From assembly GCF_014699075.1 (NCBI RefSeq), contig NZ_JACXAB010000001.1:248001-312000 (forward strand): a stretch of 64,000 bases of DNA, in the 5' to 3' direction. The notes under the pieces are model-generated. The model made no database searches and was not told the origin of the DNA. It saw only the letters and a list, made by a program, of their open reading frames with translations. Within the stretch, counting starts at the first letter, position 1, and each line of letters opens with the position of its first letter. The position numbers and the translations under genes are program-made. The DNA comes from Microvirga sp. GTDB lineage: Bacteria > Pseudomonadota > Alphaproteobacteria > Rhizobiales > Beijerinckiaceae. Below, in pieces: positions 4,300 through 59,379 of the stretch.

Positions 4300-4324
4300 A
4301 ACGCTTTTTCAGGGCGACGGTTCC
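4300..4324 (-). promoter_or_regulatory. Possible EcfG-type promoter for the response regulator
   Basis: On the minus strand GGAAC (4324-4320) and CGTT (4303-4300) are separated by exactly 16 bases, matching the alphaproteobacterial general-stress (EcfG) consensus. It is about 200 bp before the response regulator start, so the leader would be long. About one chance match of this kind is expected in a window this size, so this isolated one is weaker than the cluster near 58-59 kb. Confidence 0.35.
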
Positions 4325-29734: not shown

Positions 29735-29831
29735 GGAACAACCGTATACGAGGTGTCGTTCGGCTTACCACCAGAAACGACCTCCACCCAAGGGCGGACT
29801 GGCCTTATCCGGAAAAGCGGATAAGATGTTC

Positions 29832-57484: not shown

Positions 57485-58023
57485 GATTGATCGCCTTCAA
57501 GTCGGCAGACAACACCCCGCACGATGAGTCATCGAACATGATTCTCGGCTCGAACCGTCGCTTTCATGCCGAACGTCATGCCGAAGAGACGATTTTTTTC
57601 GCGCGGTGTCGGAGCGCGGCATCGGACTCGTGAAAGGCCCTGATCTTCCCTCTCCAAGTGAGGAGGATTGCACCGCGATGTTGAACGTTCTTGAAGATGT
57701 TCGAATACTCGCGCGCTGGAGAAGATCAACTTTTGACATCATATAAGCATCTGACAGTAAATGATTTTTTCGACAGTATGCGACGGCCTTCCAAGTTGAT
57801 CGACCATGCCGCGTCCTCTCTGCAAGCGACTCTAACTCACTCATCCTGCACCCGATATTGAGTCTTGCATCGGCAAGTGAAGAGAGCAGCGTCGAGCAAC
57901 ATATCCACAGAAAAAGTGCGCGTTCTACTGTCTACACTTTCCGTTATTCGGAACCCCCTTGGTATAACGACGTTGCCTTGCAAGCGTGACGGTTGCACGC
58001 GAAGGCCCTTGAAGGAGGCGGCA
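57485..58023. other. AT-richer 539-bp region upstream of the histone-like gene
   Basis: No ORF here looks real. It holds two poly-T stretches (near 57594 and 57765), TTGACA at 57733 without a matching -10, and the EcfG-type promoter 57950-57974. A small RNA could be hidden here, but I see no terminator hairpin that would define one. Confidence 0.5.
57950..57974 (+). promoter_or_regulatory. EcfG-type general-stress promoter for the histone-like gene
   Basis: GGAAC (57950-57954), 16 bases, CGTT (57971-57974). The histone-like ATG is 50 bases after the -10. One of three such sites within 1.5 kb. Confidence 0.7.
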
Positions 58024-58719
58024 ATGCCGACAGATACCAAGAACCCGCTGACGATGCTGTTCACGGGTGACACCGGTGCGACCAGCACCAAGAAGACCGC
58101 GAAGAAGAGCAGCTCGCGCAGCGGCTCGTCCAGCACCAAGAAGTCGGGCTCGAAGAGCTCGGGCGCCAAGAAGGCGACGGCCAAGAAGACGGCTGCGAAG
58201 TCGACCTCGAAGTCGGCATCGAAGTCCTCGGCCAAGTCCGGCGCCAAGAAGTCCACGGCGAAGAAGACGGCTGCTAAGAAGACCACGGCCAAGAAGACCG
58301 CTGCCAAGAAAACCTCGGCAAAGTCTTCCCCCAAGTCGGCGGCCAAGAAGACCACCGCCAAGAAGACAGCTGCTAAGAAGACGACCGCTAGGAAGACCGC
58401 TGCCAAGAAGACGACCGCAAAGAAGGCTTCGGCCAAGTCGAGCTCGTCGGCTTCCCGCAAGTCCTCGTCGGCTCGCTCCGGCGCATCGCGCTCTTCGGCC
58501 AAGAAGACGGCCTCGCGCAGCTCCAGCCGCGGCGCGGTGAAGTCCTCGTCCCGCAGCTCGGCGTCCAAGTCGCGCAGCAGCTCCAAGTCGGCGCCCAAGC
58601 GCGCTGCCGCTGCTACGAGCCGGACCTCTTCCACGAAGAAGTCGGGCAAGGTCGCCAAGCGTTCGTCCAGCTCCCGTTCGTCGAGCTCCCGCAAGAGCCC
58701 GTCGAAGTCCAGGCGCTAA
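58024..58719 (+). CDS. Histone H1-like Lys/Ala/Ser-rich protein
   Basis: 231 residues, almost wholly Lys, Ala, Ser, Thr and Arg after a short acidic-neutral start (MPTDTKNPLTMLFTGDTGAT). About 58150-58440 encodes repeated AKKTTAKKTAA units; the last third changes to Ser/Arg-rich SRSSSK-like repeats. It resembles eukaryote-type H1 tails and bacterial Hc1/AlgP-like proteins that bind DNA through charge. AAGGAGG is six bases before ATG 58024. An EcfG-type promoter upstream suggests nucleoid compaction under stress (inference). Confidence 0.85.
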   Translation: MPTDTKNPLTMLFTGDTGATSTKKTAKKSSSRSGSSSTKKSGSKSSGAKKATAKKTAAKSTSKSASKSSAKSGAKKSTAKKTAAKKTTAKKTAAKKTSAKSSPKSAAKKTTAKKTAAKKTTARKTAAKKTTAKKASAKSSSSASRKSSSARSGASRSSAKKTASRSSSRGAVKSSSRSSASKSRSSSKSAPKRAAAATSRTSSTKKSGKVAKRSSSSRSSSSRKSPSKSRR

Positions 58720-58778
58720 GACCCCCATGCGGCACGCGCCGGGATAGGCTTCCCTGTCGTCAGGCGCGTGCGCATAAA

Positions 58779-58810
58779 AAATCGCCCGGTGAAAACCGGG
58801 CGATTTCTTT
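58779..58810. terminator. Bidirectional terminator between histone-like and PRC-barrel genes
   Basis: Twelve-base arms AAATCGCCCGGT / ACCGGGCGATTT with a GAAA loop, A run before and CTTTT after. Between convergent genes. Confidence 0.92.
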
Positions 58811-58828
58811 TGTCCGCGTTGAAGAGGC

Positions 58829-59242
58829 TTACCGGCCCGTGCTCATCGGGTCGCTGGCACCCCAGTAAGGGGTTGCATTGTAGTAGCGGTGGACGTGCTC
58901 CTCCCATTCCCGATCGTAAGAAGCATCGTGCCCTTCCGCACTGCGCCGGGGAGCGCCGCGCAGCTGATCTTCGTTGAGGTTCAGCTCGTAGGCATCGAGC
59001 TCCGTGTTGTACTTCAGGACGCCCCAGGGAAGCGTGTAGTATTCCTCGCCGAGACCCATGAAGCCGCCGAAGCTCATGACCGCATAGGCCACCTTGCCGG
59101 ACCGCTTCTCGATCATCACGCGCTCGATCGTCCCGATCTTCTCACCGTCCGAGCGGCGGACGGGCGTTCCCTCAACCTTGTCGCTGGCGATCAGGCTATG
59201 GGTTTCGCGAACGTCGCCACTCTGTGCCGTCGTCTCCATCAT
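58829..59242 (-). CDS. PRC-barrel domain protein
   Basis: 137 residues. The PRC-barrel core is ASDKVEGTPVRRSDGEKIGTIERVMIEKRSGKVAYAVMSFGGFMGLGEEYYTLPW, then LNLNEDQLRGAP. The C terminus is rich in His/Tyr/Asp (HDASYDREWEEHVHRYYNATPYW). ATG 59242 follows AAGGAG. A GGAAC-N17-CGTT promoter lies 31 bases upstream. PRC-barrel proteins of this type are common stress-induced proteins in alphaproteobacteria; the mechanism is unknown. Confidence 0.9.
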   Translation of the reverse strand: MMETTAQSGDVRETHSLIASDKVEGTPVRRSDGEKIGTIERVMIEKRSGKVAYAVMSFGGFMGLGEEYYTLPWGVLKYNTELDAYELNLNEDQLRGAPRRSAEGHDASYDREWEEHVHRYYNATPYWGASDPMSTGR

Positions 59243-59272
59243 CTCGCTCCTTCGTCTGTGAGATCCTAAGGC

Positions 59273-59298
59273 AACGCTCGGGTTGAAAACCCGGTTCC
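59273..59298 (-). promoter_or_regulatory. EcfG-type general-stress promoter for the PRC-barrel gene
   Basis: Minus strand GGAAC (59298-59294), 17 bases, CGTT (59276-59273); 31 bases to the ATG. The spacer includes CGGGTT-GAA-AACCCG. Confidence 0.7.
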
Positions 59299-59354
59299 GT
59301 GCCCCGCTTCTCCAAGCTTTCCAAGGCTTTGCTCCTGAGCGAAGCGCTGCCGTA

Positions 59355-59379
59355 GGAACCCCCTTACCGCCCTCACGTT
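59355..59379 (+). promoter_or_regulatory. EcfG-type general-stress promoter for the SDR gene
   Basis: GGAAC (59355-59359), 16 bases, CGTT (59376-59379). The -10 lies within ACGTTGATCAACGT (59375-59388), a perfect 14-bp palindrome. The site supports the later ATG (59420) as start. Confidence 0.7.

Follow-up and report, generated by a model that had tools for sequence, protein, structure and literature searches.

The closest described counterpart of the locus reported here is the PhyR-NepR-EcfG regulon of Methylobacterium extorquens and Sphingomonas melonis. In one source (PMC4814048), the EcfG promoter consensus is given as GAAC-N16,17-C/GGTT, and divergent phyR and nepR-ecfG under EcfG promoters are described as the usual alphaproteobacterial layout, M. 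extorquens excepted. A second source (PMC6599016) tabulates EcfG-dependent genes, among them a PRC-barrel gene of S. melonis that has a log2 ratio of -4.5 and carries GGAACC...CGGTT at a distance of 27 bases from the start. The genome analysed here, from the soil genus Microvirga, matches this regulon in its sigma-factor locus, in its promoter consensus and in the placing of promoters tens of bases from gene starts.

In this genome, phyR diverges from two genes, nepR and that of an ECF sigma factor. Two GGAAC-N16-CGTT motifs in the region between them point apart, facing nepR and phyR; a looser pattern gave five more EcfG-like motifs in the 4.3-kb stretch of the locus. PhyR scored 366.7 bits with NF006623 (cut-off 240), and NepR 63.1 bits with Pfam PF18557 (cut-off 25.7) and 30.4 with the NCBIfam NepR model, under its cut-off of 100. 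The sigma factor scored above the sigma70-ECF cut-off; we named it EcfG from its place and kin, not from a model of that name. Since this locus itself carries the motif, GGAAC-N16/17-CGTT is a usable signature in this Microvirga.

Three exact copies of the signature precede the genes for a histone H1-like protein (H1 below), a PRC-barrel protein and an SDR oxidoreductase (Table 1) in the window, the whole 64-kb stretch of DNA that was analysed, which corresponds to 248001-312000 of contig 13. The original prediction had placed them 30-50 bases from the gene starts, and the gaps indeed amounted to 49 bases for H1 (ATG 58024), 33 for the PRC gene (ATG 59239, minus strand) and 40 for the SDR gene (ATG 59420). 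For the latter we used ATG 59420 over a possible TTG at 59378, because a ribosome-site-like sequence precedes it and it aligns across relatives. Shuffles gave 0.89 exact matches expected in the window against 5 observed, at least five being reached in 2 of 100 shuffles. In the whole genome (6.6 Mb), 152 matches were counted vs 104 with the pattern reversed. As this excess is modest, a match taken singly is weak evidence, and position and conservation must carry the argument. A single-domain response regulator is a plausible further stress target, since the fourth exact motif of the window (GGAAC-N16-CGTT, 4300-4324, minus strand) lies 171-222 bases ahead of where this gene may start. The fifth (29735-29760, plus strand) precedes a substrate-binding-protein-like frame by about 230 bases, but it also falls within a long open frame of the opposite strand and may be a chance match.

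Table 1. Features of the H1-PRC-SDR locus, in window coordinates.
Feature	Position	Strand	Basis or remark
TATCCACAG, invariant element upstream of H1 promoter	57902..57910	+	32/32 aligned Microvirga loci
Upstream stretch TTCTACTnTCTACACTTTCCGTTA, moderately conserved	57923..57946	+	Diversity 0.11-0.12; candidate activator site
Inverted repeat TTCCG-N5-CGGAA overlapping -35	57939..57953	+	Left arm altered in 6/32 loci
EcfG-type promoter, H1-like gene	57950..57974	+	Exact GGAAC-N16-CGTT
TTGGTATAACGA within EcfG spacer, TGn-TATAAC	57959..57970	+	Site diversity 0.005
5' leader of H1-like gene, ultraconserved	57975..58023	+	Diversity 0.012, first 48 bases
Predicted hairpin, probable mRNA 5' end	57975..58006	+	GCCTT/AAGGC, GCGTG/CACGC
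Histone H1-like lysine/serine/alanine-rich protein, 231 aa	58024..58719	+	Pfam HC2 E 2.5e-7
GC-rich inverted repeat between convergent H1 and PRC	58779..58806	.	Sequence; sub-threshold Rfam overlap
PRC-barrel protein, 136 aa	58829..59239	-	PF05239 E 4.9e-14, 52.5 bits vs cut-off 21.2
EcfG-type promoter, PRC-barrel gene	59273..59298	-	Exact GGAAC-N17-CGTT
EcfG-type promoter, SDR gene	59355..59379	+	Exact GGAAC-N16-CGTT
SDR oxidoreductase, PRK07109 subfamily, 386 aa	59420..60580	+	NF005495 367.7 bits vs 264

The SDR search covered 61 genomes, 37 of them of Microvirga including the present one, and 32 of these held a full-length close ortholog. It returned no close full-length SDR ortholog in G005, G010, G011 and G021, and the match in G025, on a contig of 3.4 kb, was incomplete. 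The gene order H1, PRC, SDR was maintained in all 32 genomes with a full-length SDR. We looked in these relatives for loss of a motif where the gene was kept. The exact motif was present ahead of H1 in 32/32 loci, ahead of PRC in 32/32 (N16 in 9, N17 in 23) and ahead of SDR in 31/32 (N16 in 26, N17 in 5), so that each motif was conserved with its gene, as in members of an EcfG regulon, with the loss of a single SDR motif (L079, GGACC instead of GGAAC). In five loci (L073, L074, L075, L078, L079), the PRC motif stood about 110 bases more distant from the PRC start; a decayed-looking promoter copy was seen there at the customary position. G010, which has no close SDR ortholog, retained the H1 and PRC motifs, and an SDR-side motif was looked for there and not found. 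Correctly placed and kept in the related genomes examined, the three motifs constitute strong evidence. Together with the phyR/nepR/ECF locus that carries the motif, this conservation over 32 Microvirga genomes supports the proposal that the genes form a stress-regulated cluster, in which all three would depend on EcfG.

The PRC motif extended beyond the genus. Of 149 family genomes searched, 110 matched the PRC protein, and among the best 30 loci taken, 24 belonged to other genera. An exact N16/17 motif occurred within 200 bases of the inferred PRC start in 21 of these 24 best other-genus loci, whereas the reversed pattern gave no match at the same 24. The three misses include a gene (L168) that reaches the contig edge, whose upstream sequence is missing and which was counted as a miss. 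In three loci from two genera (L148, L149, L150), the frame divergent from the PRC gene was an SDR of the same type, with an SDR-side motif 23-44 bases from the possible SDR starts, and a composition filter run over these 3.4-kb loci found no H1-like frame. Because these other-genus PRC-SDR pairs have both promoters and no H1-like frame was found with them, the pair looks like an older unit common to other genera of the family and H1 like a Microvirga addition. In three other loci outside Microvirga (L159, L160, L162), the neighbour opposite the PRC gene is a membrane-protein-like frame of about 52 aa, likewise with EcfG-type motifs. Stand-alone H1-like proteins of other genera (MVKATTK/MAKATTK) resemble the Microvirga proteins in composition and differ from them in their N-terminus; no EcfG-type motif was found within 400 bases of their genes in 8/8 loci, after three further loci (L221, L224, L232) had been dropped from the upstream scan for a wrongly chosen frame. 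Stress control of H1-like proteins is therefore not general. Among SDR homologs, the motif was absent from those on four plasmid records (of 20 listed).

H1-like proteins, as a kind, bind DNA, and the Microvirga protein would be expected to do so as well. The copy in the window scored under the curated cut-offs (31.5 bits vs 40 for PF07382, 30.2 vs 135 for NF038052 and 27.5 vs 80 for NF038053) and is therefore H1-like by composition, not a certified family member; the Microvirga orthologs in G010 and G029 do exceed the PF07382 cut-off. Its computed pI was 12.0, probably the ceiling of the calculator. The 45 distinct orthologs, drawn from 96 loci in which species recur, with 5 additional edge-cut loci set aside, measured 192-294 aa, with 15-31% lysine and a pI of 12.0. 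Most begin with some form of MPTDxK(S)NPLTMLFTGDTGATSTKK, which is missing in L097 and divergent in L096, and protein identity among Microvirga loci went down to 43%. The SDR protein carries a C-terminal hydrophobic segment, recognised by eye in the sequence. The GC-rich repeat that separates H1 from the convergent PRC gene is a probable two-way terminator. Four sub-threshold Rfam matches over it (sodF_sRNA, BSnc120, ncS037 and ncS011, window 58727-58812) probably reflect just its hairpin; one more sub-threshold match lies at 59280-59344.

The control region of H1 stood apart from those of PRC and SDR. In an alignment of the 32 Microvirga loci, diversity was 0.45 far upstream, 0.11-0.12 from -46 to the -35 element, 0 in GGAAC and CGTT, 0.30 at spacer bases 1-4 and 0.005 in TTGGTATAACGA, compared with 0.36-0.47 in the SDR spacer and 0.22-0.41 in the PRC spacer. 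Diversity at fourfold sites was 0.42 in PRC (30 of the 32 genes) and 0.37 in SDR (15 of the 32 genes, gap-free). A search that tolerated up to 3 mismatches found the longer string GGAACNNNNTTGNTATAACGACGTT in exact form in 47 of 48 Microvirga genomes; the exception is G025, a 780-contig draft in which absence cannot be established. Among named genomes, the H1 promoter pattern matched 39 contigs, all of Microvirga. The invariance of the spacer rests on searches that permit change at spacer bases, and the one change in TTGGTATAACGA, a single event (L082/G022), hits the n of TGn. In the genome, the spacer element gave 7 matches vs 9 for the reversed control, thus no excess.

This element may be part of a second promoter. 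TGn stands ahead of the hexamer TATAAC (T57960, G57961, n, then 57963-57968), which agrees with TATAAT at 5 of 6 positions, and we take TGGTATAAC to be an extended -10 element, assuming the consensus TGnTATAAT; the Caulobacter -10 is GCTANAWC. Its spacing would place a start at 57975, exactly where the predicted hairpin GCCTT...AAGGC begins. For this putative housekeeping start, no TTGACA-like -35 was found, and the hexamer ends in C. Further upstream, the invariant TATCCACAG resembles a DnaA box, and the stretch TTCTACTnTCTACACTTTCCGTTA is a possible activator site, with a single match in the 6.6-Mb genome at up to 3 mismatches.

The constraint continued into the leader, whose diversity was calculated from 31 loci, L097 being excluded for a two-base insertion; the invariance reached into the coding region, where ATGCCGA was identical in 23/23 aligned rows. 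A leader model (R1) matched 15 of the 248 family genomes, and these belong without exception to Microvirga, one of 43 genera, in a run with stricter filters by which weak matches are lost. Membership of the leader in a wider RNA family was discarded, the R1 matches being confined to Microvirga. An order-wide blastn matched 3 of 297 genomes, namely the present one and two with short matches that we took as chance, the first lying ahead of a sulfatase-like frame and the second within open frames that are unrelated. A 20-mer of the leader was exact at the H1 site only, with two more places in the genome at 3 mismatches. An EcfG promoter needs no conserved spacer, since those of PRC and SDR drift; the constraint on the H1 promoter and leader, which the original prediction did not include, far exceeds what such a promoter needs.

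We consider it probable that the three genes are direct EcfG targets and that H1 combines a composite promoter with a conserved leader. Under stress, PhyR would take NepR off EcfG, and EcfG-RNA polymerase would initiate at the three GGAAC-N16/17-CGTT promoters. Microvirga would have placed the histone H1-like gene alongside an older unit, the divergent PRC-SDR pair. The EcfG -35 and -10 of the H1 promoter would surround the nearly invariant TGGTATAAC, which would either serve the housekeeping sigma factor as a start of the extended -10 type or be bound by a regulator. We favour two interleaved starts because the nearly invariant TG-n-TATAAC has the extended -10 layout. H1 would then have basal and stress-induced starts a few bases apart. 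Both would yield an mRNA that begins with the conserved leader, and this leader would probably adjust translation or stability. The broader idea of a chromosome stress-compaction circuit is offered tentatively and is in our judgement rather doubtful; here a genus-wide dual-sigma promoter and leader would give the H1-like protein basal and stress control with leader-gated translation, possibly autoregulated.

The main rival to two interleaved H1 starts is a dedicated regulator, for which the H1 spacer and leader would be the sites from which it represses or activates the EcfG promoter, without any second sigma start. Conserved dyads, for instance AACG-A-CGTT within the spacer and, beyond the start, GCGTG-N7-CACGC, would suit such a protein, as would the lower level of conservation upstream of -35, of the kind that regulator sites would show, and the lack of a housekeeping consensus -35. 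The elements searched are not recurrent in the genome, however, so that this regulator would serve H1 alone, and we regard it as unlikely. The leader could also act as an RNA device, either through hairpins that control translation around the ribosome site and AUG or through autoregulation by the H1-like protein. The 48 bases from the -10 to the AUG are nearly invariant, and in the predicted fold the ribosome site is paired while the AUG sits in a stem-loop. The fold energy was nevertheless ordinary (z -0.48, with 61 of 200 shuffles equally good), none of 10 pairs was changed on both sides among 15 distinct rows, and Rfam gave no match to the leader at E up to 5. There is no covariation signal because almost nothing varies (8 of the 10 pairs are invariant), and the argument for an RNA function of the leader is thus one of sequence conservation alone. 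We give this possibility somewhat less than an even chance; it is compatible with the composite promoter preferred above.

Two further explanations fared much worse. The leader might be coding, as a short upstream frame or as an extension of H1, since a short frame that opens with GTG and spans 8 codons and a stop ends right before the ribosome site and the H1 frame is open upstream. Yet two-base insertions in L097 and L127 disrupt the H1 frame, GTG has become GTC in L127, and the near-invariance affects every position, not just codon positions one and two, which makes a coding leader very improbable. It is equally hard to believe that the three motifs arose by chance and that the genes lie outside the EcfG regulon. 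Single matches are indeed common in the genome, but the three sites have been kept across the 32 genomes even as the spacers of PRC and SDR drifted, and the motif recurs at most of the best PRC loci outside Microvirga.

The near-invariance of TTGGTATAACGA and of the 48-base leader is new, and such an ultraconserved promoter and leader suggests that a putative DNA-packaging protein is under tight control of a kind not described before. In the literature searched, in which subscription journals are thinly covered, EcfG was not found together with histone-like proteins, nor Microvirga with EcfG or with histone H1, and the word "histone" is absent from the main texts of PMC6599016 and PMC4814048. 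If the H1-like protein does belong to the EcfG regulon, this would suggest that an alphaproteobacterial nucleoid is remodelled within the general stress response. In addition, about 60 non-coding bases kept nearly constant genus-wide, beside a protein whose identity falls so low, offer a clear and readily testable case of non-coding constraint.

As a protein, the window copy is like Hc2 of Chlamydia (Pfam HC2) and AlgP of Pseudomonas in being lysine/alanine-rich, very basic, of low complexity and of variable length; it is unlike them in falling under the HC2 and NCBIfam cut-offs and in its N-terminus. The element TGGTATAAC resembles extended -10 housekeeping promoters, including in the start that it would set, but differs from them in having no -35 and in lying inside the spacer of another promoter. 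Finally, unlike the M. extorquens and S. melonis regulons as described in those main texts, that of Microvirga would count a histone H1-like gene among its targets, and the promoter of this gene is conserved through most of its spacer.
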